Shown here: positions 1 to 38,659 of the stretch, piece by piece
How the letters are laid out: every line of letters begins with the position of its first letter
Position numbering within the stretch: the first letter of the stretch is position 1
Source: Herbidospora cretacea
GTDB lineage: Bacteria; Actinomycetota; Actinomycetes; Streptosporangiales; Streptosporangiaceae
Assembly: GCF_001570605.1 (NCBI RefSeq)
Contig: NZ_BBXG01000001.1
Coordinates: 1-64,000, forward strand
Length of the DNA stretch: 64,000 nt
Direction of reading: 5' to 3'
The notes under the pieces: model-generated
What the model was told of the DNA's origin: nothing
Databases searched by the model: none
What the model saw: the letters and a program-made list of their open reading frames with translations, nothing else
Translations under genes and position numbers: made by a program

Positions 1-1118
1 GCCAGCACGCGGTCGGCCAGCTCGCGGACGGCGCCGGCGCCGCCCTCCTGGGTCAGCACGACGCGGGCGGCCCTGAGCACCTGGGCGTGGGAGCCGGGCA
101 CCGCGACCGGCCAGCCGACCAGCGACATGCAGCCGAGGTCGTTGACGTCGTTGCCGACGTAGGCGACCCGCTCGGGGTCGAGGCCCTCGATGGACAGCCA
201 GTCGGCCAGCGCGTTGGCCTTGGCCGACAGGCCCTGCAGCACCGGCACGCCGAGCTTGCGGGCGCGGGCGGCGACGACGGGGTTCTGCTCGGTCGACAGC
301 ACCAGCACCTTCACCCCGGCGCGGGTCAGCAGCGAGACCCCCATGCCGTCGGCGCGGGAGACCGCGACCATCTCGCGGCCCTCGGAGTCGACGAACGCGC
401 GGTCGTCGGTGTGGACGCCGTCGAAGTCGGTGACCACGGCGTCGACGTCGATCGGCAGCGGCTCGTCGACCACGTGGGCGAGCGCGCGCACGATCTCGAG
501 GTCTTCGGGGGTGTCGACCTCGTGGGCGGTCACGCTCCTGACCGGCTGCACGGCGACGGTGCCGAAGAAGCGGTGCCCGGCCTCCTTGAAGCCCTCGGCG
601 CGCATCACGTAGAAGGCGCCGGTCTCCCGGAAGTGGGGCTCGCGGTCCTGGCGGCGCGGGCGGGTGGCCGGGTCGTGGTTGATGCCGGCGCCGCCCTCCG
701 TCCAGAGGAACTCGTAGGTCTCCAGGCCGGAGAACACGACGTCGGCCTCGCCCGACAGCACCCGCGCGACGGCGGCGTCGATGTCGGCCGGGTCGATGAA
801 GACGCTGGTCGCCTGCACGAACACCACGACCTCCGGCGTCGCGCCGAGCGCGTCCAGGGCGTGGAGCACGGCCGACTCGCTGGAGGCGGTCGCGCCGGCG
901 ATCTCGGCGGGACGGTCGACGATCTGCGCGCCCGCGGCCTCGGCGGCGGCGGCGATCCCCTGATGGTCGGTGCTGACGACCACGGTGTCGACGGACTCGG
1001 CGCGGACCAGCGCGCTGACCGCCCGGGCGACCAGGGGGATCCCCCCGACGCGCTCCAGGTTCTTCAGCGGCACGCCCACCGAACCACCACGGGCGGGGAC
1101 AACGGCCAAGACTCGCAC
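1..1118 (-). CDS. Acylneuraminate cytidylyltransferase fused to a KdsC-like HAD domain (3' end cut by window)
   Basis: The first 372 residues are present; the end lies beyond position 1. The N-terminal half looks like a CMP-sialic acid synthetase: it opens with VRVLAVVPARGGSVG and a K-N-L segment, the nucleotide-binding signature of the family. From about residue 225 a second domain begins with DFDGVHTDD, the catalytic aspartate loop of HAD phosphatases, and continues with GNDVNDL, the later HAD acidic motif. This layout matches two-domain proteins that activate nonulosonic or related acids for surface polysaccharides, with the HAD part as a sugar-phosphate phosphatase. The GTG start at 1118 is supported by a GAGGAG ribosome site 7 bases upstream. 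Substrate cannot be told from sequence alone. The nearest upstream gene is divergent. Confidence 0.85.
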   Translation of the reverse strand, partial: MRVLAVVPARGGSVGVPLKNLERVGGIPLVARAVSALVRAESVDTVVVSTDHQGIAAAAEAAGAQIVDRPAEIAGATASSESAVLHALDALGATPEVVVFVQATSVFIDPADIDAAVARVLSGEADVVFSGLETYEFLWTEGGAGINHDPATRPRRQDREPHFRETGAFYVMRAEGFKEAGHRFFGTVAVQPVRSVTAHEVDTPEDLEIVRALAHVVDEPLPIDVDAVVTDFDGVHTDDRAFVDSEGREMVAVSRADGMGVSLLTRAGVKVLVLSTEQNPVVAARARKLGVPVLQGLSAKANALADWLSIEGLDPERVAYVGNDVNDLGCMSLVGWPVAVPGSHAQVLRAARVVLTQEGGAGAVRELADRVL

Positions 1119-1385
1119 GGGTCAACTCCTCAAAGGGTGGTAACCCCCCAGGTGGGGGTCCCAGGAAACCTAGTCACGAGTGTGACCAGAATGGGGCGGA
1201 TGAGCTTAACGGTTATGGTCGGGCACGTTAACTTTGTGTGCCAAGCGCCTGGCATTGATCTTTTTGAACGCTCTGACCTGCGGCTTTCGCGTGGCGATTT
1301 GGAGGCTATCGCATGACAGAGTATGTCGTTTACCCCGCAATCCAAGCACCTATCCAAATGATCAAACTTAAGATAGAAGTCACAT
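1119..1385. promoter_or_regulatory. Divergent intergenic region with small inverted repeats
   Basis: This 267-bp gap separates the cytidylyltransferase and esterase genes and is far more AT-rich than its flanks, as expected for divergent promoters. It holds GTCAC-GAGT-GTGAC (1173-1186) and TGCCA-N6-TGGCA (1239-1254), which could be operators. No open frame here looks coding. The regulator is unknown. Confidence 0.4.
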
Positions 1386-2324
1386 ATGCGACGACTATTG
1401 CTGGTTGTGTGTTTACCTCTGGTTCTTCTGCCGGCCGCATGCTCCGACGCCCCTCAGGAAAGGCAGGCCCCGGTGACGACCGCGCTCACCCCCCGCATCG
1501 CCGACAGGACACCGCTGGACGACCGGCAGGACGCCCTGACGATCGCCTCCGCCGCGCTCGGCCGCGACGCGCAGGTGCGGGTGCTCAAACCGGCGGGCTG
1601 GACCGAGGGGTCGACCGGCTGGCCGGTCCTCTACCTGCTGCACGGCTGCTGCGAGCCCACCGGTGACACCTGGCTGACCAAGGGCGACGCCGCGCGGGTG
1701 ACGGAGCGGCTGAGGGCCGTCGTGGTGGTCCCCGAGGGCGGCTCCGACGGCTGGTACGCCGACTGGCTCGACGGCCCGGCCTGGGAGACCTTCCACATGA
1801 AGGAGGTCCGCTCCCTCGTGGAGGACCTCTACGGCGTGGGGGAGCGGCGCGCCGTCGCGGGCCTGTCGATGGGCGGCCACGGCGCGTTCGGCTACGCCGC
1901 CCGCAACCCGGGCGTGTTCGAGGCGGCGGCGGCGTTCTCGGGCGTGCTCGACATCCGCATGGACGTGCCGGGGTTCTCCTCGTTCCTGCGCGACAACGGC
2001 GCCGAGCCGGACAAGCTGTGGGGCCCGCTCCCGGATCGCGAGGACAACTGGCGCGCCCACAACCCCGCCGACCTCGCGACCAAGCTCACGGGCCTGCGTC
2101 TCTACGTGTCGGCGGGCGACGGCGAGCCGGGCGAGCTCGACTCGGGCGGCGGCACCGACTTCGGCGAACAGTCGATTCTGCGGCAGAGCCAGCGCTTCGT
2201 CCGCGCGGCGAGAATCGCCGGGCTGAAAGTCGAGACGGATTTCTACGGCCACGGCCACCACGACTGGCCCTACTGGACGCGTGCGCTGGAGCGCGCCCTT
2301 CCCCTTCTCCTGCCGGAGGCGTGA
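1386..2324 (+). CDS. Lipoprotein esterase (esterase D / enterochelin-esterase-like alpha/beta hydrolase)
   Basis: A 312-residue alpha/beta hydrolase. The N-terminus MRRLLLVVCLPLVLLPAACS is a signal peptide with a lipobox ending at Cys19, so the mature protein is probably a lipid-anchored extracellular enzyme. The nucleophile elbow GLSMGG puts the catalytic Ser at residue 161, and a histidine-rich YGHGHHDW segment near residue 290 supplies the likely catalytic His. The family (PF00756) includes S-formylglutathione hydrolase, antigen 85 and enterochelin esterases. It stops 11 bp from the convergent end of the NRPS locus. A link to the NRPS product, such as hydrolysis of a peptide outside the cell, is only a guess. 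No strong ribosome site is visible before the ATG. Confidence 0.85.
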   Translation: MRRLLLVVCLPLVLLPAACSDAPQERQAPVTTALTPRIADRTPLDDRQDALTIASAALGRDAQVRVLKPAGWTEGSTGWPVLYLLHGCCEPTGDTWLTKGDAARVTERLRAVVVVPEGGSDGWYADWLDGPAWETFHMKEVRSLVEDLYGVGERRAVAGLSMGGHGAFGYAARNPGVFEAAAAFSGVLDIRMDVPGFSSFLRDNGAEPDKLWGPLPDREDNWRAHNPADLATKLTGLRLYVSAGDGEPGELDSGGGTDFGEQSILRQSQRFVRAARIAGLKVETDFYGHGHHDWPYWTRALERALPLLLPEA

Positions 2325-2335
2325 GGCCGTAAGCC

Positions 2336-3820
2336 TCAGCGTCCCGGGCCTTCGCCTCCCGCCACGACATAGTGGCGGGGGGTGATCGCCGCCATTCGTC
2401 CCGGGAGCAGCCGCAGGCATTCCGTGTGCAGTTCTCCGGGCGTCAGCGCCGATTCCGCCCGGCAGACGAGGTCCCGATCGACCGATGCCGCTATTGCGCC
2501 CGCGTCGGTGACGAGTCGTGTCACTTCGGGTAATGACACCCATTGTCCGTCGGTGAACACCCAGGAATCGTCGCGCTCGATCGGTGCAATTCCTGATATT
2601 TCGGAAATGTCGTCGGCATTTCCGTCCGCGGCGGCGATCAATACTTTCGCGATGCCCTCACCGAGCGAAAAGGCGTCGTCCCGGGGCAGAACTCGGGGGT
2701 CGGCCCACAAGGTCAGATCCAATTCGCCGTGCAGCCGGTGCACCCACAGCGCCGTCCGGCACGGCAGGGTCGCCTCCGGCAGCCAGACCGCCCGCACCTC
2801 GTCGCCGGAGGTGGCCGGGCGGCCGGTCCGCCCGGTGCCGCTCATGTCGTTGAAGACCAGGTCGCGGGCGAAGAACAGGCCCCGGTCGCGCTGCACCCGT
2901 TCCATGATCGAGATCAGCGCGTCCGCGTCGAACCTGCTGTTCTGGTACGCCCCCAGCGCCGCCCCCCGCATCCCGGCCAGGACCTCCCCGAAATCGCGGG
3001 AGACGGGCACCGGGACGAGCGCGTCCTGGGCCAGCGGCCCCACGTACGACCGCAGGTCGGGCCGGAACCGGTTGGCCGAGATCGACAGCACCCCGGTCAG
3101 CGGCACCCCGCCGCGCACTCCGGCCAGCGCCGCGTAGGCGGCGAGCACGGCGGACGACGCGCTGACGCCCGTCCGGGCCGCGATCCTGGTCAGCGCGCGG
3201 GCCGCCCCGGCCGAGCGCACCCGGAGCCGGGGCAGCCGCCACTCGTGCCCGGCGTCGTCGACGGAGACCGCCAGGGTGGAGCGCGGCACCCGGGTCAGCG
3301 CGCCCTCCCAGTAGCGCAGCGCGGCCCCGGCCCGCTTCCGCCCGGCCGCCGACGTCTCGGCCAGCGCCACGTCGACCGGCTGCGGCGCGGTGACGGCCTC
3401 GAGCGGCTTGCCCACCACGATGTCGTCCCAGTCGGCCAGCAGCACGGCCAGCCCGGCCGCGTCGGCGGCGCTGTGGGTGGTCACCAGCGTCACCTGGTCG
3501 CCGGCCACCCCCACGCGCAGGGGCAGCTCGTTCTCCAGGTCGAACCGGACCGTGTGGTCGGCCGCCGCGCCCACGTGGACCTCGCCGGAGCCGTGCACGC
3601 GCTGCACGTCGCCGTGGAAGGTGGTGCGCAGCGACTCGTGCCGGGTCACCAGGGCCAGCACCGCCTCCTCCACCGGGACCCCGGCCGGGAGCGGGCGGAC
3701 CACCCGGTAGTTCATGTGCTCCGGCGGGTCGGTGCGGACGCAGCGGACCATGTTGGCCTGGCCGTGCGTCAGCGGCCCCTCCCGGGAGGGCAGCCCGGAG
3801 AAATTCACTGGGAAGATCAC
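2336..3820 (-). CDS. Stand-alone condensation-like protein of the NRPS locus
   Basis: 494 residues from a GTG start that overlaps the upstream NRPS stop by four bases (GTGA), so it is translationally coupled to it. The opening PLTHGQANMVRCV resembles C-domain core motif C1, and RHESLRTTF near residue 80 is a typical C2 region. The HHxxxDG catalytic motif is altered to THSAADA near residue 117: the second His and the Asp remain, while the first His and the Gly are lost. No A, T or TE domain is present. Such free C domains can join an amine or an acyl group to a carrier-bound intermediate, act in trans, or be inactive partners. The long open frame continues upstream inside the NRPS, but that part is a shadow. 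Confidence 0.8.
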   Translation of the reverse strand: MIFPVNFSGLPSREGPLTHGQANMVRCVRTDPPEHMNYRVVRPLPAGVPVEEAVLALVTRHESLRTTFHGDVQRVHGSGEVHVGAAADHTVRFDLENELPLRVGVAGDQVTLVTTHSAADAAGLAVLLADWDDIVVGKPLEAVTAPQPVDVALAETSAAGRKRAGAALRYWEGALTRVPRSTLAVSVDDAGHEWRLPRLRVRSAGAARALTRIAARTGVSASSAVLAAYAALAGVRGGVPLTGVLSISANRFRPDLRSYVGPLAQDALVPVPVSRDFGEVLAGMRGAALGAYQNSRFDADALISIMERVQRDRGLFFARDLVFNDMSGTGRTGRPATSGDEVRAVWLPEATLPCRTALWVHRLHGELDLTLWADPRVLPRDDAFSLGEGIAKVLIAAADGNADDISEISGIAPIERDDSWVFTDGQWVSLPEVTRLVTDAGAIAASVDRDLVCRAESALTPGELHTECLRLLPGRMAAITPRHYVVAGGEGPGR

Positions 3821-6800
3821 TCCTGCCTCCCGTGGACGAGGGCGGCGGCCTCCTCGTCGGAGAGCTCGTCCAGCTCGGCGACGATCAGCTCCTCGACGGC
3901 GGCGGCGAGCCGCTCGACCGTGGGGGCGTCGAAGATCACCCTGATCGGCACCTCGACCCCCGTGATCGCCCGGATCCGGGCCAGCGCGCGGGCCGCGAGC
4001 AGCGAGTGGCCGCCGATGGCGAAGAAGTCGTCCAGGGCGCCGACCCCGGTGAGGCCGAGCACCTCCCCGTACACCTCCGCGACGAGGGCCTCGGCGTCGC
4101 CGCGCGGTTCGACGTGCCCGAGCGAGCCGCCCGCGTCGGGCGCGGGCAGGCCGCGCTTGTCGACCTTGCCGTGGGGGGTGAGCGGCAGCGCGTCCAGCCA
4201 CATCCAGACCGAGGGGACCAGGTACGACGGCAGCGCCGCCGCCACCCACTCCCCGAGGTCGGCGGGGTCCGTCCGGGTGCCGGTGACGTAGGCGACCAGC
4301 CGGTCGGCGTCGGCGACCACGACGGCCCCGGTGACCGCCGGGTGGGCGGTCAGCCGCATCTCGATCTCGGCCGGCTCGACCCGGTGGCCGCGGACCTTGA
4401 CCTGGTCGTCGGCCCGGCCGAGGAACTCCAGCCGCCCGTCGGCCAGGAACCGGGCCCGGTCGCCGGTCCGGTAGACCCGGCCGTGCCCGGTGGGCCGGAA
4501 CCTCTCGGCGGTCAGCGCCGGCTGGTTCAGGTAGCCGTCGGCCAGCCCCGCGCCGCCCAGGCAGAGCTCGCCGGGCATCCCCGGCGGCACCGGCTGGCCC
4601 TGGCCGTCGAGGACCAGCGCGACCACCCCGCCGACGGGCCGCCCGATCGACGGCCGGTCCTCACCGGTGACGTCGCCGGCGGTGGCGATGATCGTGCCCT
4701 CGGTCGGGCCGTAGGTGTTCACCAGCCGCACCGTGTCGCCGAACCGGGCCCGCCAGCGCGCCACGGCGGCCCCGCTCAGCTCCTCGCCGCCGAGGATGAC
4801 CAGCCGCAGCCGGGGCGGCCAGTCGACGTCGAGGGTGACCAGCTCGTGGAAGTAGGCCGTGGGCAGGTCGAGCACCGTCACGTCGCGCCCGCGCGGCGAG
4901 GCCAGGAACGCCGGCAGCGTCAGCGGCCCGCCGGGCAGCAGTTCGAGGGTGGCCCCGGCGGCCAGCGCCGGGTAGATCTCCTCGGCGTGGGTGTCGAAGG
5001 AGTAGGCCGCGAACTGCACCACGTGGTCGTCGGGCGTCAGCTCGTACGCCTCCCGCATCCACGCCACCCGCGCCGCCAGCGCCTGATGGCCGACCACGAC
5101 CCCCTTCGGCGTCCCGGTGGACCCTGAGGTGAACAGCACGTAGGCCGCGTCCTCGTGGCTCCCTCCGGCCGCCTCCTCGCGCAGGAACGCCTTGCGCGCC
5201 TCCGGCAGCGCCGGATCGACCGGCAGGTAGGCCGCCCCGGAGGCCCACGCGCCCAGCAGGGCCCCGATCCCCTCGGGGGTCCGGTCGAGGCCGACCTCCC
5301 GGATCGTGCGGCCGTTCTCGTGGACGGCGATCGGCAGCTCCCCGTAGGCGACGGTGCGCCCGTCGGTCCGGACGGCCACCGCGTCGGGCCGTTCGGCGAT
5401 CTGCCGGGCGATCATCGCGGGGACCCGTTCGGGGTCGGGCAGCTCGGGGCCGCGCCCGGCCCGGTCGAGGAACTCCCGGTCGGCCTCGGTGAGCAGCGGC
5501 AGCTCCGACAGGCGGCGCGCGGGGTCGGCGATGACGCCGCGCAGCAGCGTCTCCAGCCGCGCGGCCAGGCCCTGGGCCGTCGAGGCGTCGTAGAGGAGCG
5601 TGTCGTACTCCAGCTGGACGAGCAGGCCCTCGGGGTCCTGCCAGGCCTCCAGCAGCAGGTCGAACTTGGCCTGGGCGTGGCCGCTCGGCAGGTCGCCGAC
5701 GGTCAGCCCGGCGAAGGGGCGCGGCACCCGGCCGGTCTCGTGGGTGTGCAGGATCGCCATGGTCTGGAAGACGGGGGTGCGGGTCAGGTCGCGCTCCAGC
5801 TTCAGCTCGGCGACCAGCTTCTCGAACGGCACGCCCCGGTGCTGGAAGGCGTCCAGGACGGCCGTCCGGGTCTTCAGCAGCAGCTCGGGGAAGAGCGGGT
5901 CGCCGGACAGGTCGCCGCGCAGGACCAGGATGTCGGTCAGGTAGCCGATCACCGATTCGAGCGCGACGGTGTCGCGTCCGGCGTTGGAGGTGCCGACGAG
6001 GATGTCGGTGCCGCCGGTGTGCCGGGCCAGCGTCGTCTGGTAGGCGGCCAGCAGCGTCATGAACAGCGTCACCCGGTGGTCCCGCGCCAGCGCGACCAGC
6101 TTCTCGGTCTCGGCCAGGCCGAGCCGGAACGACACGAGCGCGCCCGGCCCGGCGGCCCCGGTGCGCGGCCGGTCGGGGTGCAGGTCGAGCGGGGTCGGCC
6201 CGGCGAGCTGCCGCCGCCAGTAGTCGACCGCCTTGACCCCGTCGCGGGCCCGCTGCCACACCGCGACGTCGCCGAACTGGAGCGGCACCGGCGGCAGGGG
6301 GACGCCGGAGTAGGCGTCGGCGAGCTCGTCGAGCAGGATGTTCAGCGACACCCCGTCGCCGGTGATGTGGTGGGCGACCACGCAGAGCACGTGCCCGTCG
6401 GGCACCTCGACCACGGTGACCCGGATCGCCGGTCCGGCGGTGAGGTCGAACGGGGTGTTCACCCGGTCGGCCACCGGACGGGCGGGGTCGTCGGCGCTGA
6501 TCCACTCGATGACGGGGGTGACGTCCTGGATCTCCACGACCGGCTCGCCGTCGACGGCCGGGAAGCTGGTCCGCAGGATCTCGTGCCGCGAGGCGACCGT
6601 GGTGAGCGCGTCCTGGAGCCGTGAGCGGTCGAGGTCGCCCCGCAGATGCCGGACCAGCCACATGTTGAACCCGGCGTCGGTGTCCGGGTGGAGCCGGTTG
6701 AGGAACCAGAGGCGCTCCTGCCCGGCCGACAGCGGCGGCGTCGTCCCGGCGGGACGCGGCTGCGGCACGTGGTCGACCTTCGGGCGGGCCCCGTCGACCT

Positions 6801-9636
6801 GGGCGGCCAGCCCGGCGACGGTCGGGTGGAGGAACACCGTGCTCACCGGCAGCCGGACCGGCAGCCGGGCGATCACCCGGGTGGCCAGCAGCGAGTGGCC
6901 GCCGAGCGCGAAGAAGTCGTCGTCGCCCCCCGGCATGGGGGTCTTCAGCACGTCCGCGAACACCTTGGCGACCAGCCGCTCGGTCCGCGTCTTCAGCATC
7001 CGGGACGGCGCGGTGGTCACCTCGGCCTTCGGCAGCGCCTTGCGGTCGACCTTCCCGTTCGGCGTCAGCGGCAGCGCGCCGAGCACCACGACCCGGCTCG
7101 GCACCATGTAGCCCGGGAGGACCTTGGCGGCCTCGTCGCGGACCTTCGCGGCGTCACCGGTCACGAACGCGACGATCGTGTCGTCCTGGACGGCCGCGAC
7201 CGCCTGGCCGACCCCCTCGATCGACTCCAGCACGGTCTCGATCTCGCCGAGCTCGATGCGGTGGCCCCGGAGCTTGACCTGGTTGTCGGTCCGCCCGAGG
7301 AACTCCAGGGTCCCGTCGGCCAGCACCCGGACCAGGTCGCCGGTCCGGTAGAACCGGTCGGGCGTGAACCGCTCGGCGGTCAGCTCCGGCCGGTCGTGGT
7401 AGCCCGTGGCCACCCCGAGCCCGCCGATGCGCAGCTCGCCGGGCACCCCGACGGGCGCGAGGTCCTCACCGGCGACGACGCGGATCACCGTGCCGGGCGT
7501 CGGGCGGCCGATGCTGATCGCCTCGGCGTCGCGGGGGACGTCCCAGGTGGTCGAGTAGATGGTCGTCTCGGTGGGGCCGTAGCCGTTGATCAGCCGGTGG
7601 GTGCGGGCGGTCAGCTCCTTCGCCAGCTTGGGCGGCAGCGGCTCCCCGGCGGTGATCGCGGTGACCGGCGGCCATTCGGCGGTCAGCAGCACCCGCCACC
7701 CCGACGGCGTGGCCTGCACGTGGGTGACCCCGTGGTCGCGGATCAGGTCGGCGACGACCTGGGCGTCGCGGGCGTCCTCGGCGAAGACCACCCGCCCGCC
7801 GGTGATCAGCGGCAGGAACAGCTCCACCGCCGAGATGTCGAACGCGGTGCTCGTCAGCGCCAGCCAGACGTCGTCGGGCGTCGACCCCACGATGTCCCGC
7901 ATGCCCAGCAGCAGGTTGGCCAGCGCCGGGTGCGGGACCACCACGCCCTTCGGCAGACCGGTTGACCCGGAGGTGTAGAGAATGTAAGCGGGCGCGTCAG
8001 AGGTGGTCGGAGTGAAGTCGGTCTCCGGGACGGCGAGATCCTCGTCGCGCAGGACGGCCTCCGCGCCTGAATCTTTCAGAATGTATTCAACGCGCGCCTG
8101 CGGATAGGCCGGGTCGACCGGGAGATAGGCGGCCCCGGCGAGGTGCGCCGCGAGCATCGCCACGATCGTCTGGACGCCGCGCGAGGTCCGGATCGCCACC
8201 AGTCTCACCGGCGGCAGCGACGCGGCGACCGACTTCGCCCACCGGAGCAGTTCGTCGTAGGTGACGTCGTCGACGGCGAGCGCGTGCGGCGTCCGCGCGG
8301 CCTGCTCGGCGAACAGGGACGTCCAGGTGGCGACCTCGTGGCCGGGGGCGCCGCGGCCCTGCTCGACCAGCCAGGCCCGCTCGCCGTCGGGCAGCAGGTT
8401 CACCGCGCCGAGCGGCCGGGCGGGGTCGGAGAGGAGGCCGCCCAGGAAGGCGCGGAACCGGTCGGCCATCCTGCGGGCCGTGGCCTCGGTGAACAGGTCG
8501 GCGCTGTAGATGAGCGAGCCGGTCATCGAGCCGTCGGCGTTGGGCCACAGGTCGAGCGACAGGTCGCAGCGGGCGCCGGCGTACCCGCTGACGAACGCCT
8601 CCGCGTCGAGACCGGGCAGGGGGCTCGCGATCGCGTCGGCGGTGTAGTTGTGCAGGGCGAACATGGTCTGGAAGACCGGGGTGCGGCTCAGGTCGCGGGG
8701 GAGGCCGAGGTCGGCGATCACGCGTTCCAGCGGGACGTCGGCGTGTGACATGGCCTCGATCACCGCCCGCCGGGTCGCCTTCACGGCGTCGGCGAACGTG
8801 CCCGCCGGGGCTAATCGGAGCGGGAGCATGCTGGTCAGGTGGCCGATGACGTGTTCCTGGCTGACGTCGACGCGCCGGGAGACCGGCGTGCCGACGCAGA
8901 AGTCGTCCTGGCCCGAGTGCCGGGCCAGGAACGCCGCGAACGCGGCCAGGTGGACCATGAACGGGGTGGCCCGCATGCTCCGGGCCGTCTCGGCGGCCTT
9001 CGCGACCAGTTCCGGCGGGAGCTCGACGAGCACCTCGCCGCCCCGCCCGCCGCGCCGCGCCGGGCGGGGCAGGTCGGTGGGCAGGTCGAGCACCGGGACG
9101 CCGCGCAGCCGCTCGGACCACCAGCCGGCGTCGCTCTCGGGAGCCCTCTCCACCTGCGGATTCACCGGTGGGAGCGCTCCAGAACCGCTGTAGGCGTCGG
9201 CCAGCTCGCGGGCCAGGATCCCCACCGACAGGCCGTCGGCGATGATGTGGTGCAGCGCGATCGCCAGCACGTGGTCATGGTCGTCCAGCTTGATCAGCAC
9301 GACCTCGACCGGCGGCTTCGAGAGGTCCATCGCCGTGTTGGAGAGCGTCCGCACGATCGCCTCGGCCTCCTCGACGCCGGCCGCCGTGACCTGCGTGATC
9401 GGCACCGGCCCCGGGGGCAGCACCTCGGCCGCCGCGGTGGGGAAGCGGGTGCGCAGGCTCTCCTGCCGGGACGCCGCGGTCTCGAACGCCCGCGCCAGCC
9501 GCGCCGGGTCGAGGGGGCCGCGCAGCCGGTAGGCGTGGCACGTCGTGTAGGACGGGTCTGCTGGGTCGAGCTGGTGCAGGAACCACAGGCGTTCCTGCCC
9601 GGGGGAGAGGGCGCGAGCCAAGGGGAGAACCGCCAA
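3817..9636 (-). CDS. Dimodular nonribosomal peptide synthetase, C-A-T-C-A-T
   Basis: About 1,940 residues. Domains in order: C1 (LSPGQERLW at the start, HHIIADG), A1 ([11 protein letters not shown]), T1 (LGGHSLL), C2 (HHITGDG), A2 ([11 protein letters not shown]) and T2 (IGGHSLL). No epimerase or thioesterase is present, so the chain must pass to another protein. Hand-read specificity residues are D-I-V-Q-I-A-G-I-Y for A1 (faintly glycine-like) and D-T-E-L-I-G-T-I-I for A2 (no match recalled). An N-terminal C domain suggests either an acyl starter or an upstream donor. The frame is open to GTG 9735 and ATG 9726, but an operator-like palindrome at 9642-9664 and low-GC sequence argue for a later start such as TTG 9636; this is uncertain. 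Confidence 0.93.
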
Positions 9637-9641
9637 ACTAA

Positions 9642-9664
9642 AACTGGAAAGTTTGCTTACAGTT
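9642..9664. promoter_or_regulatory. Operator-like imperfect palindrome A (minus-strand NRPS promoter)
   Basis: AACTGGAA-N7-TTACAGTT, 7 of 8 arm positions paired, in AT-rich DNA just upstream of the probable start of the minus-strand synthetase. It shares half-site sequence and spacing with the palindrome at 9769-9791. The binding protein is unknown. Confidence 0.5.
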
Positions 9665-9768
9665 AGCGCGATCGGCGCCAGTGAACCACGCCGACGGAGG
9701 GCCCGACAAGCCCACGTTTCAGTCATTGTGTGCACGTGGCGGCCGTGCGAGACTGACGATCTCCGCTT

Positions 9769-9791
9769 AACTGTAAAGACTATTTACAGTA
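9769..9791. promoter_or_regulatory. Operator-like palindrome B (plus-strand NRPS promoter)
   Basis: AACTGTAA-N7-TTACAGTA. The core at 9770-9790 is a perfect 8-bp inverted repeat, ACTGTAAA and TTTACAGT, around GACTA. It lies 38 bp upstream of the GTG start at 9829. With site A it probably gives one regulator control of both divergent transcripts. It does not match an actinobacterial iron box or a Zur box. Confidence 0.6.
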
Positions 9792-9828
9792 AGGGAAATT
9801 GACAAACCGTCGTCGGAAGAGTCATTTC

Positions 9829-12800
9829 GTGAGCACACTGTCGGCCGACAAGAAGGCCCTCCTCGCCCAGCGCTTACGACGCCGGGAGGAGACCCGGGTG
9901 ATACCCCCGCGCGACCCGGCCGCGCCCCTCGTGCTCTCCCCGGCCCAGGAGCGATTGTGGTTCCTGGAGCAGTACCGGCCGGGCACCACCACCTACACCG
10001 TCCCGCTGACCGTCCGCCTTCAGGGCGACCTCGACGACGCGGTGCTCGAAGACGCCTTCCACCGGGTCGCGGCCCGGCACGAGGTGTTCCGCACCCGCTT
10101 CGCCGCCGACGACGAGGGCGTTCCGGTGGTCACCCTGCGGCCCGAGGCCGGCGCGGAGTTCCTGCTCCGGGACGCCGGGTCCGAGGACGAGGCCCGGGAG
10201 ATCATCGAGACGGCGCTGAAGCGGCCGTTCGACCTGGAGCACGGCCCGCTGCTGCGCGCCCTGGTGGTCCGGCTCTCGCCGGCCGACCGGGTCCTGCTGC
10301 TGGCCGCCCACCACCTGGTCACCGACGGCTGGTCGCACGACATCGTGCTGTCGGAGCTGCTCGCCCTGGCCAAGGGCGACGCGCTGAAGCCCGCGCCGCA
10401 GGTCGCCTACGCCGACTACGCCGTCTGGCAGCGCGACCGCGACCACACCCGGGACGTCGCCCACTGGCGCGAGCACCTGGCCGGCGTCCCGGTGCTCGAC
10501 CTGCCGACCGACCGGCCGCGCCCGCCCGAGATGGGCCACGCCGGGGCCATGTACGAGATCCCGGTGGACGTCGCCATCGCCCGCGACGGCACCGTGACCC
10601 CCTACATGGTCCTGCTGGCCGCCTTTCAGGTCCTCCTCGGCCGCTACACCGGCCAGGACGACTTCGCCGTCGCCTCCCCGAGCGCCGGCCGGAGCGTTCC
10701 CGAGCTCGACGACGTGGCCGGGATGTTCGTCAACACCCTGGCCATGCGGGCCGACCTCGCGGGCGACCCGACGTTCACCGAGCTGGTGGCCCGGGTCCGC
10801 GACCGCGCCCTCGACGCCTACGCCCACCAGGAGCTCCCGTTCGACCGCCTCGTCCAGGAGCTGGAGGTCGAGCGCGACGTCTCCCGCTCGCCGATCGCCC
10901 AGGTGACGATGGCGCTGCAGAACTGGCGCCAGGGCCTCGACGGCCACGGCCTGACCCTGACCCCGTTCCGGGTCGAGGCCGGGGTGAGCCGCTTCGACCT
11001 GTCGCTCTACCTGTACGAGCGGCCGGGCGGCTACTGGGCCCAGTTCGCGTACAACACCGACCTGTTCGACCGCGCCACGATCGAGCGCTTCGCCGGCCAC
11101 TTCTCGGCCCTGCTGGCGCAGGTCGTCGCCGACCCGGGCCGCCCGATCTCGGCCTACCCCCTCCCGGCCGGGGAGGCGCTCGCCTTCTCCGACGGCGGCC
11201 CGGTCTCCCGGGCCGGGAACCTGCTGCACGACGTGGTCGACGGCCCCGCCGACCGGGTCGCGATCCGCTGCGACGGCGTCGACCTCACCTACGGCGACCT
11301 GGCGGACCGTTCCGACGCCCTGGCCGCCCGATTACGCGACCTGGGCGCCGGACGCGACTCCCGGGTCGCCGTCTGCCTGGAGCAGTCGGCCGAGATCGCG
11401 GTCGCCATCCTGGGCGTCCTGAAGGCGGGAGCCGCCTATGTGCCGCTTGACCCGGCGCAGCCCGACGACCGCCTCGCCTATCTCGTGGACGACGCCGGCA
11501 TCGACGTCGCCGTCACCCGGCGCGACCTGCCCGGCGTCACGCACACGGTCACCCCCGGCGAACGCGGCCTCGCCGCGCTGCCCGAGGTCTCCGAGACCGA
11601 CCTCGCCTACGTCATCTACACCTCCGGCACCACCGGCCGCCCCAAGGGCGTGGCGGTGCAGCACCGGCAGATCCTCACCTATCTCTCGGGCGTCCGCGAA
11701 CGCCTGGCCCCCAAGGACCACGGCTCCTACGCCCTCCTCCAGTCGCTCAGCTTCGACTTCGGGATCACCGTCTTCTACCTGTCGCTGATGACCGGCGGCA
11801 CGCTGACCCTGCTCAACCCGCGCCTGGCCGCCGACGAGCTCGCGGTGACCCTCCGGGACAGCGACTACCTGAAGATCACCCCGTCCCACCTGGCGTCGCT
11901 GCTGCCCGAGGCCGACGTCCTGCCCAGGGAACTGCTCCTGCTCGGCGGCGAGGCCTCGCCCGCGGAGTGGGCCGCGAGCCTGCGCAGGCCGGGCCTGCGC
12001 GTGGTCAACCACTACGGCCCCACCGAGGCCACGGTCGGCGTCACCACCCACGACGTCCACGACGACGAGAAGGGCCTGCTGCCGATCGGCCGCCCGCTGC
12101 CCGGCGCCCGCGTCCACGTCCTCGACCCGGCCGGGAACCCGTGCCCGGTCGGCGTCCCGGGGGAGATCCACCTCGGCGGCGACCGGCTCGCGCGCGGCTA
12201 CCTGAACCGGCCCGCGCTGACCGCCGAGAAGTTCGTGCCCGACCCGTCCGGCGAACCCGGCGCCCGGATGTACCGGACCGGCGACCTCGGCCGCTGGCTG
12301 CCCTCCGGCGAACTCCAGTTCCTCGGCCGCCGCGACCTCCAGGTGAAGGTCCGCGGCTACCGGGTGGAGCTCGCCGAGATCGAGATCGTCCTGGCCGACC
12401 GCGAGGGGGTCGCCCAGGCCGTCGTGGAACTGCGCGACGACCGCCTCGTCGCCTACCTGGTCGGCGAATCCCGCGACCTGCGCGCCGAACTGGCCGACCT
12501 GCTGCCCGACTACATGATCCCCTCGCGGTACGTCTGGCTCGACGCCCTCCCGCTCAAGTCCCACGGCAAGGTCGACCGCGCCGCCCTGCCCGACCCCGGC
12601 ACCGACCGCCAGGCCGAGTCGGTCTACGTCCCCCCGGCGAACGCCCTGGAACAGGCCATCGCCGACGTCTGGGCCGCCGTGCTCAACGTCGACCAGGTCG
12701 GCGCCGAGGACGACTTCTTCGCCCTCGGCGGCCACTCGCTGCTGGCCGCCCAGGTCGTGGCCAAGCTCCGCCGCGTCACCGAGCGCCCGGTGACGATCAT

Positions 12801-14994
12801 GGACATCTTCAAGCACCGCACGGTCCGCGCCCTCGCCGCCCGCACGGACGACGGCCCCCGCCGCCTCCTGCACCGCCTCACCCCGCCCCGGCGCACCACC
12901 ACGAACCTGGTCTGCGTCCCCTACGGCGGCGGCAGCGCCGCGATCTACCAGCCCCTCGCCGACGCGCTCCCCGAGCACGTCGCCCTCTACTCCGTCGCCG
13001 TCCCCGGCCAGGAGTGGGGCCTCGACGAGGAGGGGCGGCCGATCCCCGAGGTCGCCGACGAGTGCGCCAGGGAGATCCTGGAGCGCGTCCCCGGCCCGAT
13101 CGCCCTCTACGGGCACTGCGGCCTGGGCGTCATGCTCGCCGTGGAGATCACCCGCCGCCTGGAGGCGGCCGGGCGCGAGGTCGAGGTCCTGCACCTCGGT
13201 GGCGTCTTCCCCTTCTCCCGCCCCGGCTCGCTGGCCGGGCGGGTGCGCACCATGGCCGAGAAGATGCGCTCCGACCGGATGTGGGCCAACGGCCTCATCG
13301 CCGCCGGTCTCGACGTCGAGGAGCTCGACGACGACCAGCTCAGGGCCATCATCAAGAACCGCCGCGAGGGCACCCGCGAGGCCGAGGCCTACTTCACGAG
13401 GCTCTGGTCGGAGACCGGCGGACCGGTGATCAACGCCCCCATCGTCGCCGTCGTCGGCGAGCGCGACCCGGCCACCGAGTTCTACCAGGAACGCTTCCGC
13501 GAATGGCTGCGGCTGGCCCCGGCCAGCTCGTGCGTCGTGCTCGACGAGGCCGGGCACTTCTTCCTCAAGCACCGCGCCGAGGAGCTCGCCGAGATCGTCA
13601 CCACCCGCGAGGTCGTGCCCCGGACCGACGAGAGCACCTGGTGGACCCAGGCCACCTCCGCCGAGCCGGTCGCCGACGAGGGCCCCAAGCCCAGCATGAA
13701 GCGGTTCGGCGCGGTCGCCGCCGGTCAGCTGATCTCGATCATCGGCTCGGCCCTCACCGAGTTCGCCGTGCCGCTGTGGATCTACGTCACCACCGGCTCG
13801 CTGGTCAACTTCGCGCTGTTCTCCGTCATCGGCCTGCTCCCCGGCATGCTGGTCGCCCCGTTCGCGGGCGTGATCGTCGACCGGTACGACCGCCGCAAGG
13901 TCATGCTCGCCGGAGACGTCGGGGCCTGGTCCACCCAGCTCGCCCTGGGCGTGCTGCTGTGGACGGGGAACCTGGAGATCTGGGCGATCTACCCGCTGCT
14001 GGCGGCCCTGTCGGTCGCGCTGACCTTCCAGCGGCTCGCCTACGGGGCGTCGATCCCGCAGCTCGTGCCGAAACGGCTGCTCGGGCACGCCAACGGCGTC
14101 GTCCAGATGGTCACCGGGTCGGCCCAGCTCATCGTGCCGCTGATCGCCGCCGGGCTGATGGCCACCATCGGGCTGGAGGGCATCCTCGTCATCGACGTCG
14201 CCAGCTACACCTTCGCGATCGTCTCGGTGCTGCTGGTCAGATTCCCGCGCACGATGGGCCTGCGCCGCCGCGAGACCATCTGGGCCGAGATGGTGGGCGG
14301 GTTCCGCTACACCTGGTTCAACCGCAGCTTCCGCGCCATGCTGCTGTTCTTCGCCGGCCTCAACGTCTTCCTGTCGCCGCTGTTCCTGCTGCTCAGCCCG
14401 CTCGTGCTGGCCTTCGGCGGCAACGACCTCGACGACGTCGGGCGGGTGTCGTTCGCGGGCGGCGTCGGCGTGCTGCTCGGCGGGCTGGCCGTGGCGCTGT
14501 GGGGCGGCCCGCGCCGGCACCGGATGCGCGGCATGCTGCTGGCCACCCTCGGCCTGGCGGTCTTCTGCGCCGTCACCGGCCTCCAGCAGAACCTCGTGGT
14601 GATCGCGATCGGCGCGTTCGGCATGTCCCTGGCGCTGACCGTCGTCAACGGCGTCTACGCCACGATCATCCAGGTGAAGGTGCCCCAGCGCTTCCACGGC
14701 CGGGTCATCGCCCTGAACACCCTGGTGGCCTGGTCGACCCTGCCGCTGGCCTTCGGCGTGGTCGCGCCCTTCGGCTCGGAGATCATGGAGAACCTCGTCG
14801 ACGGCCCGAAGGGCGCCGGAATCGCGTTCCTGTACGTCGTCTTCGCCGCCGCCATCGCCCTCATCGCCCTCGTGGCGCTGCGGATCCCGCGACTGGCCCG
14901 GTTCGACACCGACGTGCCCGACGCCCCGCCGGACGACCTCATAGGTCTTCAGGCGGTGGCGGACCGGCGAGAGGCAGCCGCATCACGAACCTGA
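9829..14994 (+). CDS. Nonribosomal peptide synthetase C-A-T-TE (Cys thioesterase) fused to an MFS exporter
   Basis: 1,721 residues from GTG 9829, chosen because GGAAGAG sits 8 bases upstream; TTG 9799 is an alternative. Domains: C (LSPAQERLW, HHLVTDG near 160), A (YTSGTTGRPKG near 595), T (LGGHSLL near 966), TE about 1025-1265 and MFS about 1290-1690. Hand-read A-domain residues D-F-T-K-L-G-H-V-G closely resemble the aspartate code D-L-T-K-V-G-H-I-G. The thioesterase elbow is GHCGLG, so Cys1097 replaces the usual Ser; ERDPAT and AGHFF can supply Asp and His. The transporter portion resembles EntS-type drug or siderophore exporters, with about 12 hydrophobic segments and DRYDRRK after the second. 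The 3' end overlaps the convergent kinase gene by 56 bp. Confidence 0.93.
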   Translation: MSTLSADKKALLAQRLRRREETRVIPPRDPAAPLVLSPAQERLWFLEQYRPGTTTYTVPLTVRLQGDLDDAVLEDAFHRVAARHEVFRTRFAADDEGVPVVTLRPEAGAEFLLRDAGSEDEAREIIETALKRPFDLEHGPLLRALVVRLSPADRVLLLAAHHLVTDGWSHDIVLSELLALAKGDALKPAPQVAYADYAVWQRDRDHTRDVAHWREHLAGVPVLDLPTDRPRPPEMGHAGAMYEIPVDVAIARDGTVTPYMVLLAAFQVLLGRYTGQDDFAVASPSAGRSVPELDDVAGMFVNTLAMRADLAGDPTFTELVARVRDRALDAYAHQELPFDRLVQELEVERDVSRSPIAQVTMALQNWRQGLDGHGLTLTPFRVEAGVSRFDLSLYLYERPGGYWAQFAYNTDLFDRATIERFAGHFSALLAQVVADPGRPISAYPLPAGEALAFSDGGPVSRAGNLLHDVVDGPADRVAIRCDGVDLTYGDLADRSDALAARLRDLGAGRDSRVAVCLEQSAEIAVAILGVLKAGAAYVPLDPAQPDDRLAYLVDDAGIDVAVTRRDLPGVTHTVTPGERGLAALPEVSETDLAYVIYTSGTTGRPKGVAVQHRQILTYLSGVRERLAPKDHGSYALLQSLSFDFGITVFYLSLMTGGTLTLLNPRLAADELAVTLRDSDYLKITPSHLASLLPEADVLPRELLLLGGEASPAEWAASLRRPGLRVVNHYGPTEATVGVTTHDVHDDEKGLLPIGRPLPGARVHVLDPAGNPCPVGVPGEIHLGGDRLARGYLNRPALTAEKFVPDPSGEPGARMYRTGDLGRWLPSGELQFLGRRDLQVKVRGYRVELAEIEIVLADREGVAQAVVELRDDRLVAYLVGESRDLRAELADLLPDYMIPSRYVWLDALPLKSHGKVDRAALPDPGTDRQAESVYVPPANALEQAIADVWAAVLNVDQVGAEDDFFALGGHSLLAAQVVAKLRRVTERPVTIMDIFKHRTVRALAARTDDGPRRLLHRLTPPRRTTTNLVCVPYGGGSAAIYQPLADALPEHVALYSVAVPGQEWGLDEEGRPIPEVADECAREILERVPGPIALYGHCGLGVMLAVEITRRLEAAGREVEVLHLGGVFPFSRPGSLAGRVRTMAEKMRSDRMWANGLIAAGLDVEELDDDQLRAIIKNRREGTREAEAYFTRLWSETGGPVINAPIVAVVGERDPATEFYQERFREWLRLAPASSCVVLDEAGHFFLKHRAEELAEIVTTREVVPRTDESTWWTQATSAEPVADEGPKPSMKRFGAVAAGQLISIIGSALTEFAVPLWIYVTTGSLVNFALFSVIGLLPGMLVAPFAGVIVDRYDRRKVMLAGDVGAWSTQLALGVLLWTGNLEIWAIYPLLAALSVALTFQRLAYGASIPQLVPKRLLGHANGVVQMVTGSAQLIVPLIAAGLMATIGLEGILVIDVASYTFAIVSVLLVRFPRTMGLRRRETIWAEMVGGFRYTWFNRSFRAMLLFFAGLNVFLSPLFLLLSPLVLAFGGNDLDDVGRVSFAGGVGVLLGGLAVALWGGPRRHRMRGMLLATLGLAVFCAVTGLQQNLVVIAIGAFGMSLALTVVNGVYATIIQVKVPQRFHGRVIALNTLVAWSTLPLAFGVVAPFGSEIMENLVDGPKGAGIAFLYVVFAAAIALIALVALRIPRLARFDTDVPDAPPDDLIGLQAVADRREAAASRT

Positions 14995-16300
14995 CGCCCT
15001 GGGCGTCGGACTCCACGCTGACCGTCCCGTAGTGGGCCTCGACGACCTCGCGGGCGATGGCCAGCCCCAGCCCGGTGCCGCCGCGCATCCGGCTGCGGGC
15101 CGTGTCGAGCCGGGTGAACCGCTCGAAGATGCGCTCGTGGTCGGCCTGCGGGATGCCGTCGCCGTCGTTGCCCACCGTCAGCACGGCCTGGTCGCCCTCG
15201 GTGACCAGGCTGACGGTGACCTCGCTGGCGGCGTGGCGGTCGGCGTTGTCGAGCAGCTCGCCGAAGGCCCGCGCGAGCTGCGGCTCGATCGCCTCGACGA
15301 CCACGCCCGGTTCCAGGCGCAGCTTCCTCGGCATGCGCTCGGAGCTGGGCTTGATCCGCGCGCCGACCAGCCCGGCCAGGTCGACCCGCTCCCGCACGTT
15401 GGCGTCGGCCGAGCCCACCCTGGCCAGGAACAGCAGGTCGGTGACGATCGCCTCCAGCCGGTCGGTGTCGCGCAGCGCCGCCTCGATCGCCTCCGGCATG
15501 TCCTCGACGTGCAGCCGCCCGCTCTCCAGCTGGGCCCGGATCCCCGCGATGGGGGTGCGCAGCTCGTGGGAGGCGTCGGCGGCGAACTGCCGCTGCTGCT
15601 CGACCGCCCGCTGCATGCGGCCCAGCGTGGCGTTGGCGGTCCGGGCCAGTTTGGCGATCTCGTCGTTCCCCGGCGGGATCGGCACCCGCCGGGACAGGTC
15701 GCGGGCGGTGATCTCGGCCAGCTCGTTGGTGATGTCCTCCACCGGCCGCAGGGTGCGGCCGGTGATCCGCCAGGCCAGCCAGCCGATCAGCGCGGTCAGC
15801 AGCGCCACCTGCAGGGTGATCGCCAGGGCCAGGCTGCGGGTGGTCAGGAAGCTGGGGGCCTCGCGGGCGGCGTACACGACCTCGCTGTTGGGGTCGGGGG
15901 TGGCTCTTATACCGACACCGTAGACACAGTTCTTGTCGGGCAGCGGGCAGGAGGTGAAGCGGATGATGCGGTTGTCCGGGGCCGGCCAGACGGCGGTGAC
16001 CGGCGGCAGGTCGCGCGCCGGGTTGCTCGACTCGATCACCCGGCCGCCGGGGGCGACGATCTGGACGTACACGATCCCGTCGCGGATCGGGATCGGGGTC
16101 GGCACCGTGCCCATGCGGATCTCGGCCGAGACCTGCGAGGCGACGTTCTGGCTCGACTCGAAGATGTTGTCGATCACCAGCCTGCGCGTGATCATGTTGC
16201 CGCCGACGCCGACCGGGATAAGGATCAGCAGCGCCAGGCCCACCGCGACGAGGGTGAGGCGTGCGCGAATCGATCGGGTCCGCAGCCAGGGGAGGGACAT
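14939..16300 (-). CDS. Sensor histidine kinase, HAMP type, no adjacent response regulator
   Basis: 453 residues. A first membrane segment lies at about 15-35, followed by an extracellular sensor domain to about 150, a second segment to about 180, HAMP, then HisKA with phosphorylated His in DASHELRTPIAG near residue 244, and a catalytic domain ending with GTGLGLAIAREVVEAHYG. The family relays surface signals by phosphotransfer to an OmpR-type regulator. None is next to it: the upstream neighbour is divergent and encodes an ACT protein. Its 3' end overlaps the NRPS-MFS gene, so the two convergent transcripts would be antisense to each other over 56 bp. A role in controlling the NRPS genes is possible but unsupported. 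Confidence 0.9.
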   Translation of the reverse strand: MSLPWLRTRSIRARLTLVAVGLALLILIPVGVGGNMITRRLVIDNIFESSQNVASQVSAEIRMGTVPTPIPIRDGIVYVQIVAPGGRVIESSNPARDLPPVTAVWPAPDNRIIRFTSCPLPDKNCVYGVGIRATPDPNSEVVYAAREAPSFLTTRSLALAITLQVALLTALIGWLAWRITGRTLRPVEDITNELAEITARDLSRRVPIPPGNDEIAKLARTANATLGRMQRAVEQQRQFAADASHELRTPIAGIRAQLESGRLHVEDMPEAIEAALRDTDRLEAIVTDLLFLARVGSADANVRERVDLAGLVGARIKPSSERMPRKLRLEPGVVVEAIEPQLARAFGELLDNADRHAASEVTVSLVTEGDQAVLTVGNDGDGIPQADHERIFERFTRLDTARSRMRGGTGLGLAIAREVVEAHYGTVSVESDAQGVRFVMRLPLAGPPPPEDL

Positions 16301-16469
16301 CCCTTGAGGCTACTCACCGTGATCTCATCACGCCGCCCCGGCAACACCAAAGGTCGGCCAAGCCCGATCCGTGATTCGGTCTCCGCTTTAAGCTGGACAT
16401 CCTTCTGGAACATGGCCGAAACCTGACTACGCCAGTGTGGTGGTCTGCGGGAATGAGAGGAGGCTGGTC

Positions 16470-17084
16470 ATGCTGCTGCGTCTTCGGGTGTCGCTGCCCG
16501 ATCGGCCGGGAGTGCTCGGCCAGGTGGCCAGGGCCTTCGGGGTGATGGGGGCCGACATCCTCCAGGTGACCGTGCTCGAACGGGAGGCCGGACGGGCGAT
16601 CGACGACTTCACGGTGTCGTGGTCGGCGGTGTTCAGCGCCGACGAACTGCGTGAGCGCATCGGCGTCGTGCCCGGCGTCAAGGTCGAGGCGGCCTGGCCG
16701 ACCCGGGAGGCGCCCGGCGCCAACCCCGACTACGACCTGCTCGGCCACGTCGCCGCCGAACCGGCGCGGGCCGTGCTGACCCTGGTCGACGCGGTGCCCG
16801 ACCTGGTCAGCGCCGAATGGGCGGTCGCGGTCGACGCCCAGTCGGGCGACGTCGTCCACGGGAGCTGGCAGGCCCCCGAGACCATCCACGCCACCCGCCT
16901 CACCGCGCCGCGCGCGACGACCTTCAGCGAGGGCACGCTCCACCTGCTCAGCGTGCCGATCGGCGACCTCCACCTGATCGTGGCGCGGCGGCAGGGCCCC
17001 GCCTTCCACCGGGCCGAACAGGACAAGGTCACCCGGCTGGTGAACGTCGTCGCGGTGCTCGCCCACGCCGGGGTGGGCCGTTGA
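16470..17084 (+). CDS. ACT domain protein
   Basis: 204 residues from ATG 16470, preceded by a perfect AGGAGG six bases upstream; the longer open frame from 16437 lacks such a site. The first 75 residues form an ACT domain (LLRLRVSLPDRPGVLGQVAR, then GADILQV), a fold that usually binds amino acids and regulates metabolism. The remainder reads as a GAF-like or family-specific C-terminal region and is not assigned. No catalytic domain is attached, so a ligand-sensing role is likely. It ends one base before the convergent ABC ATPase gene. Confidence 0.75.
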   Translation: MLLRLRVSLPDRPGVLGQVARAFGVMGADILQVTVLEREAGRAIDDFTVSWSAVFSADELRERIGVVPGVKVEAAWPTREAPGANPDYDLLGHVAAEPARAVLTLVDAVPDLVSAEWAVAVDAQSGDVVHGSWQAPETIHATRLTAPRATTFSEGTLHLLSVPIGDLHLIVARRQGPAFHRAEQDKVTRLVNVVAVLAHAGVGR

Positions 17085-17085
17085 C

Positions 17086-18372: not shown

Positions 18373-18800
18373 AGGTTCTCGTTCCCTTCCGGGCGCGCAG
18401 TGCCCGGAGCCCGCCATCTGGGTGATTGATGAGGTAGTACATCGCGTGGGCACGGTCCATGTCCATACATGTTGTGAAAAATGGGAGGCCCGGGGGTTAC
18501 GGGGGTGTTGCCGGGACCTGCGATGACCCAATGAAACGGGAGTGCCCCCGTGTTACGGGAGGCCCGAAAACCGGCCTGCCAGCCGGACTCCGCGTCGCCG
18601 AGCTTGCGGAACTTCCTGCGGCTTTTCATCACTCTGTCGGGCATCGGCTGACATTTCCCTAAACACCACCATGAAAGCTTCATTTGACTTCCGGGCCTGA
18701 CAAGGGCGGATCAATGGTGAGCGGCCTGCTTTCCGCAATGCGAAGAACAGGTGAAGTAGCGTTCCTGGCCCGATCGCCGCCCGGCGGTGAGGATACGCGC
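18373..18800. promoter_or_regulatory. 428-bp divergent control region between the ABC ATPase and LacI genes
   Basis: No gene is apparent. Small symmetric elements include CATG-N6-CATG (18458-18471), ACGGG-N6-CCCGT (18536-18551) and ATGAA-AGC-TTCAT (18671-18683). The last is the most operator-like and sits in an AT-rich stretch 118 bp upstream of the LacI-family start. Which one binds the regulator is not decidable by eye. Confidence 0.4.
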
Positions 18801-38650: not shown

Positions 38651-38659
38651 GGTGAGTCC

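Follow-up and report, generated by a model that had tools for sequence, protein, structure and literature searches.

A conserved NRPS-thioesterase-MFS fusion in Herbidospora suggests coupled release and export of a small peptide

We consider a divergent NRPS locus of Herbidospora, a soil actinomycete, in which the last enzyme of the assembly line carries its own exporter. The locus occupies 2336-14994 of the window (the whole stretch of DNA analysed, 64 kb at the start of contig C1 in a genome of 8.28 Mb). According to its Pfam and NCBIfam domains, it sets a C-A-T-C-A-T synthetase and a lone condensation-like protein on the minus strand opposite a C-A-T-TE-MFS fusion on the plus strand (Table 1). 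The same domain reading was made in the original prediction, which described a three-module line with the exporter built into its last enzyme, and both the domain content and the one open frame of the fusion agree with it. The Cys-type thioesterase, the paired palindromes and a second locus as possible source of the starter unit are additions to that prediction. The recurrence of the intact fusion in many related genomes suggests, at the level of sequence, that the product is released and exported in physically coupled steps. We propose an assembly line for a small peptide in which release is coupled to export: the thioesterase (TE) would close a ring through a side chain and a second locus, C6, would supply the starter in trans; this proposal we hold at even strength, for and against. 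Each domain is of a known kind. As a conserved and paralogous terminal unit that bears an exporter and an ObiF1-like TE, the fused module is undescribed in the open-access paper library searched, where we found no account of a bacterial NRPS-TE-MFS fusion class or of its product. NRPS/MFS fusions with the same domain order are annotated in actinomycetes.

Table 1. Positions of the features discussed, in the window unless a contig (C) or locus (L) is given.
Feature	Position	Strand	Remarks
Putative esterase (PF00756)	1386..2324	+	cluster membership putative; convergent with lone C gene
Lone condensation-like protein, 494 aa	2336..3820	-	Pfam Condensation E 3e-8, 33.3 bits, cut-off 30.6
NRPS C-A-T-C-A-T, 1972 aa	3817..9735	-	Pfam/NCBIfam; probable start TTG 9636, from palindrome position
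A domain 2, code DTEDIGTIIK	4147..5355	-	probably Arg/Lys-type basic residue (substrate inferred)
A domain 1, code DIVQIAGIYK	7030..8313	-	Gly-like, from published codes
Palindrome copy ACTGGAAAGTTTGCTTACAGT	9643..9663		promoter between divergent genes
Palindrome copy ACTGTAAA-N5-TTTACAGT	9770..9790		promoter between divergent genes; perfect 8-bp arms
NRPS fusion C-A-T-TE-MFS, 1731 aa	9799..14994	+	Pfam/NCBIfam; one open frame; probable start GTG 9829
A domain 3, code DFTKLGHVGK	11236..12588	+	Asp-like, from published codes
Thioesterase	12904..13602	+	Cys 13117-13119, Asp 13465-13467 (after beta7), His 13555-13557
MFS transporter domain	13702..14868	+	12 predicted membrane helices; EntS/MefB-like DHA3-type match below curated cut-off
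Sensor histidine kinase	14939..16300	-	3' end overlaps fusion by 56 nt
Four further C-A-T-TE-MFS fusions of the window genome	C8:387212, C3:149978, C6:45959, C5:29096		loci L026-L033; differing partner modules
Glycosidase and pectate lyase sites beside fusion or lone C genes	L073:354-1787, L109:1922-3472, L121:14406-17468, L028:4805-7366, L135:7352-8833		GH1, GH3, GH48, CBM2

Six of six other Herbidospora genomes share the gene order from 3 to 19802, which includes the esterase, the lone C gene, both NRPS genes, the histidine kinase and sugar genes. The GTG of the lone C gene overlaps the stop of the NRPS gene upstream of it by 4 nt (GTGA), and from this arrangement the two genes are predicted to be translationally coupled. 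A mechanical call had placed the start of the lone C frame at 4249; we discard it as an overrun, with the GTG at the 3820 end of the gene as the start. For the minus-strand NRPS, the TTG is more likely the start than the end of the frame at 9735, since the conserved palindrome falls inside the longer frame, yet upstream of the frame in two Acrocarpospora loci (L051 and L052). The GTG given in Table 1 is the more likely start of the fusion. All three in-line C domains keep the HHxxxDG motif (HHIIADG, HHITGDG and HHLVTDG). The genome has four MbtH genes, none of them beside the window cluster, and neither consensus promoters nor terminators were found between the divergent genes. The histidine kinase is kept in 6/6 congeners and in 6/7 orthologous loci of other genera, and its tail-to-tail overlap with the fusion is conserved across genera; no response-regulator partner for it was found, the minus-strand frame at 16314-17066 having no Pfam match. 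Sugar-uptake and Entner-Doudoroff genes come after the NRPS locus in the window, and in related loci GH1, GH3 and GH48 glycosidases and a CBM2 pectate lyase are repeatedly neighbours of fusion or lone C genes; it is possible that these genes tie the cluster to growth on plant polysaccharides, or that they are there by chance. At 35432-40750 the window also contains two adjacent secreted-type proteins with GSDH, PKD, ThuA and CBM6 domains.

We turn to the fusion as a gene. It is full length and in one frame, at 91-93% identity, in 6/6 other Herbidospora genomes, and its TE-MFS part is 91-95% identical to the nearest named relatives, which are Herbidospora species. Among 80 related loci, crude ORF calling places TE and MFS in one frame in 79 (78 as C-A-T-TE-MFS, one with a split A match), and a scan of all ORFs recovered the TE and MFS frame of the eightieth, L114. 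Against the six congeners, dN/dS lies at 0.15-0.23 for each of C, A, T, TE, linker and MFS, so that purifying selection acts on the main domains; the last 41 residues, the stretch that overlaps the opposing gene, have a value of 0.54, as expected of overlapping genes (here with the histidine kinase on the opposite strand). The original prediction had asked whether the exporter part could be a frameshift artefact of assembly, and the intact frames in the congeners and across the related loci rule this out. Taken more widely, to include a decaying pseudogene, such an explanation has virtually no weight with us, given also the 206 TE+MFS frames in the fetched loci and the low dN/dS. An in-frame TGA in four fusion matches (three in the family scan and one other) was set aside, because the match had merely extended past the natural stop. 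After the last membrane helix, at 14869-14991 of the window, the tail FDxxVPDAxPDDLIGL is conserved in five paralogues; it is possibly a docking or sorting motif.

The window genome has five C-A-T-TE-MFS fusions in all, each type present in 6/6 congeners, and the layout is therefore not singular: the fusions extend widely through Streptosporangiaceae. In this family 63 of 160 sampled genomes match the fusion at E <= 1e-80, with frames of at least 1319 aa among the matches listed. In the sampled class, 16/296 genomes match at E <= 1e-60 with three candidates scored per genome, a count of matches and not of fusions, because at least one match, G267, is to a stand-alone MFS (518 aa). A scan of named genomes gave 353 relatives, of which the best 80 come mostly from Streptosporangiaceae and also from Catellatospora, Kibdelosporangium, Pseudonocardia, Streptomyces and Peterkaempfera; with tblastn, relatives at 48-55% identity are found on megaplasmids of Embleya and Streptomyces clavuligerus. 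The form of the family varies. The C5-type fusion has the terminal code DLPKVAEVGK and adjoins glycosyltransferases, and loci L040 and L045 have a two-module form, C-A-T-C-A-T-TE-MFS, with two Asp-like codes (DLTKIAHVSK and DFTKIAHMIK). Of 80 loci, 26, 18 and 29 respectively carry pyruvate-dehydrogenase-like E1alpha, E1beta and E2 genes, which adjoin an acyl ligase and a free carrier (L057, L058, L069, L083, L095, L115 and others); perhaps this set makes a two-carbon or acyl starter.

The A-domain codes were read on an alignment at the ten positions of the published specificity code, and likely substrates were assigned by likeness to codes for Gly, Ser, Cys, Asp, Lys/Arg and aryl acids. Read in this way, modules 1 to 3 would load Gly-like, basic and Asp-like residues. 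Module 1 has a plain Gly code (DILQLGxIWK) in many relatives, and the position orthologous to A domain 1 in Nonomuraea sediminis (L067) reads DILQLGMIWK. The code of module 2 is near-invariant among relatives. It is the terminal, fused module that varies: in 148 relatives it is Asp-like in 91, Ser-like in 36, Cys-like in 11, basic in 8 and unread or other in 2, so that 47/148 have a Ser- or Cys-type terminal module and the window has the Asp type. From these codes we infer that the product is probably acyl-Gly-(basic)-Asp, in that order. No beta-hydroxylase was found among the annotated neighbours of the window cluster.

In the structural model of the TE-MFS part (pLDDT 82.2, pTM 0.79), an MFS of 12 helices comes after an alpha/beta hydrolase. 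On the strands of this model the Cys of the triad follows beta5, the Asp beta7 and the His beta8, and there is no acidic residue after beta6. The nearest solved relative by sequence is ObiF1 (E 7.4e-27, with YGHC aligned to YGHC). Foldseek ranks 1-3 are ObiF1 and SulM, with ObiF1 first and SulM next. In sequence SulM is sixth (4.3e-10), behind the type II TE 6vap (4.9e-19) and RifR entries (3e-13), and its Gln-Cys-Asn motif is absent from the window TE, which has His-Cys-Gly instead. In the SulM structure paper (PMC11298585), ObiF1 (beta-lactone) and SulM (beta-lactam) stand apart among NRPS TEs by a Cys nucleophile and an Asp in the loop after beta7; type II proof-reading TEs such as RifR have the same Asp position (position II), and AB3403 has the Cys nucleophile but the usual, position-I Asp. 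Judged by alignment and model, the window TE carries the Cys and post-beta7 Asp that this paper gives together for ObiF1 and SulM.

The pair can be followed through the family in 148 non-identical TEs (206 ORFs minus 58 identical in the TE stretch compared), a set in which close relatives remain and the rows are not independent. With nucleophiles read from the aligned column, the triad Asp and His are kept in 148/148 and the Cys in 140/148. The nucleophile is Cys in 138/138 TEs with an Asp-, Ser- or Cys-type terminal A domain and Ser in 8/8 with a basic-type one, these being exactly the eight Ser forms. The eight belong to one clade, and the Cys-to-Ser switch is thus one event. The class of the terminal residue changes about eight times on the TE tree while the Cys stays, and the classes that keep it have a beta heteroatom or a carboxylate.

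The MFS domain matches TIGR00900 and MefB, the former at 181.2 bits, which does not reach the curated cut-off of 319.6. It has 12 helices in the model, and the motif-A residues G338, D342 and R343 are invariant in 32 rows.

The lone condensation-like protein is predicted to have the C-domain fold (AF2 model pLDDT 84.3, fold assigned by Foldseek). It fails the HHxxxDG motif, reading TTHSAADA with the first His lost; the second His and the Asp (xHxxxD) are kept in 50/50 relatives. Similar proteins stand by fusions in at least 44 of 80 loci (the best 80 of 353 relatives), many of which are cut off at 10 kb. Three of its seven listed matches in the window genome are away from fusions (C8:314400, C9:29252 and C2:373799), and for this reason it is not tied to the fusion alone; one weak match there is an in-line C domain. 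Our guess is that the protein acylates or couples in trans. A PF20254 protein (dimethylformamidase beta-subunit-like C-terminal domain) adjoins the lone C gene at L030:6625-8712, L067:12147-14087 and L105:18576-20459.

The window cluster has the Gly-like and basic modules, with neither ligase nor loader in the part read. The C6 locus has an acyl ligase, a free carrier, C-T, a lone C protein, a PF20254 protein and a fusion 52% identical to that of the window, and is without Gly or basic modules. The C6 ligase has the code NAMFGAYPAK and is 62% identical to the ligase of L067, and in L067 the loader and a C-A-T-C-A-T synthetase (53% identical) stand in one locus. Given these complementary gene sets, their union in L067 and the palindromes shared by both loci, we propose that the window cluster and C6 may each encode one half of a single pathway. 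The starter acyl group would then probably be supplied in trans by C6, as their co-occurrence and shared palindromes, the two grounds for such loading, suggest.

Two copies of the palindrome lie between the divergent genes and are conserved in 7/7 Herbidospora, one of them with one mismatch. Allowing up to three mismatches, a scan of the window gives these two sites, with none in 100 shuffles; at up to two mismatches the first palindrome form occurs in the 8.28 Mb genome only at the window promoter. Genomes G001-G005 each have a further site some 230 bp upstream of their C6-type fusion (5/5), and G003 has one extra, unexplained site at C80:16578. A wider form of the palindrome has six sites in the window genome, against four for the reversed control pattern at three mismatches: two at the window promoter, two between the C6 fusion and the divergent acyl ligase, and two elsewhere (C16:32643 and C22:36528), unrelated to either locus. 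Among the fetched loci (2.72 Mb), which are NRPS-rich and include many orthologues, the wider form occurs in 26 loci, five of them (L057, L058, L064, L065 and L067) siteless in the scan that supplied this form; 26/26 have it at most 500 bp from the start of an NRPS, ligase or fusion, and the reversed pattern gives two sites in the same DNA. A palindrome site is present at 16 of the 133 fusions with enough upstream sequence, all 16 of the Asp type.

The steps of the proposed mechanism can now be assembled. An acyl-carrier would arrive from C6, the minus-strand NRPS would join a Gly-like and a basic residue to it, and the fusion would add the Asp-type residue. The Cys of the TE would take the acyl-tripeptide off its carrier, presumably with attack by a side chain, and hand the product to the MFS exporter of the same chain. 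Such release would activate or cyclise the terminal residue by its side chain, and the ring would depend on that residue: a beta-lactone from Ser, a beta-thiolactone from Cys and, from the Asp of the window, a cyclic anhydride, or a beta-lactone if the Asp were beta-hydroxylated. Fusion to the exporter would keep a reactive product out of the cytosol. We propose a ring-closing release because the TE is nearest to ObiF1 by sequence, fold and triad geometry and has the Cys and position-II pair of ObiF1 and SulM. The rings of these two enzymes cannot be drawn directly for the window, because the terminal residue is of the Asp type and the annotated neighbours lack a beta-hydroxylase. The ring for the Asp-type residue and the loading in trans are, in our estimate, the weakest steps.

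The alternatives bear on these same steps. The TE may be a plain hydrolase that releases a linear acyl-Gly-basic-Asp for export by the fused MFS, with the Cys a habit of the lineage; this is a real possibility, to which we incline less than to its opposite. The hydrolytic type II TEs 6vap and RifR are close in sequence, RifR-type enzymes share the Asp position according to the paper cited above, the Asp of the window has no obvious ring partner, and the TE tree has a single Cys/Ser switch. Against this, the Cys persists through about eight changes of terminal class and is given up only where the terminal residue is basic, and in SulM mutation of the Cys to Ser gave hydrolysis, as reported in PMC11298585.

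The loading step has its own alternative, in which the window cluster is self-sufficient and needs no loader in trans: the first C domain would draw acyl-CoA from the general supply of the cell, or else the acyl group would be added by the lone C protein. We judge this only a little short of an even proposition. The cluster stands alone in 6/6 congeners and also in Acrocarpospora, Microbispora and Planotetraspora loci, and the lone C protein retains its catalytic His and Asp; the palindromes common to the window and C6 argue against it, as does the first C domain of the minus-strand NRPS, which groups with its counterpart in L067, a cluster that includes both ligase and C-T. As to the exporter, EntS is a siderophore exporter, and the DHA3-type matches of the MFS would suit a siderophore pathway, as would a small chelator made of Gly, basic and Asp-type residues with the PF00756 esterase nearby. 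We consider such a pathway improbable: the free ligases of related loci match fatty-acyl-CoA ligases and read NAxFGxYPAK, which is not an aryl-acid code, and no siderophore uptake, hydroxamate or catechol genes were seen among the annotated neighbours.

Our preferred reading stays with an acylated small peptide that its TE would close and the same chain would export. A bolder extension of it, which we think unlikely, is a family of megaenzymes that make, close and export: the Cys TE would close a strained, electrophilic ring on the last residue and pass it to the exporter of its own chain, and in Herbidospora the line would be divided between two loci under common regulation, with carrier-bound intermediates passing from one to the other. 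Were a single chain to couple release to export, a reactive product need at no point be loose in the cytosol. This would amount to a new arrangement for self-protection, and it would make the fusion an easy landmark in genome searches for reactive small peptides. One TE-MFS scaffold occurs naturally with Asp, Ser, Cys and basic terminal modules, and together with the switch from Cys to Ser these form a test series for why strained-ring TEs use Cys. A shared palindrome can help to assign scattered loci to a common pathway.

We compare these proteins, finally, with known systems. SgcC5, a free-standing C domain, and the teicoplanin X-domain are both among the Foldseek matches of the lone protein and share its C-domain fold; unlike free-standing C domains and X-domains, the lone protein has HHxxxDG reduced to xHxxxD, and its Pfam match is weak. 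The MFS domain resembles the DHA3-type exporters MefB and EntS in its family matches and its 12 helices, and differs in scoring under the curated cut-offs and in being fused to an NRPS. RifR-type proof-reading TEs share sequence similarity and, according to PMC11298585, the Asp after beta7, but they stand alone and have a Ser nucleophile in the wild-type row of the alignment, whereas the window TE is a terminal domain with Cys. SulM, the beta-lactam-forming TE of the sulfazecin NRPS, is described in that paper with the same Cys nucleophile, Asp after beta7 and His after beta8 and with a small tripeptide substrate; it differs in its Gln-Cys-Asn motif, in having no MFS and in its greater distance in sequence. 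The closest likeness is to ObiF1, the beta-lactone-forming TE of the obafluorin NRPS, for which the same paper gives the Cys nucleophile and the Asp after beta7 seen in the window TE. The solved ObiF1 chain has no exporter domain, and it acts on a beta-hydroxy amino acid where the terminal A domain of the window is Asp-type and its ring a proposal.
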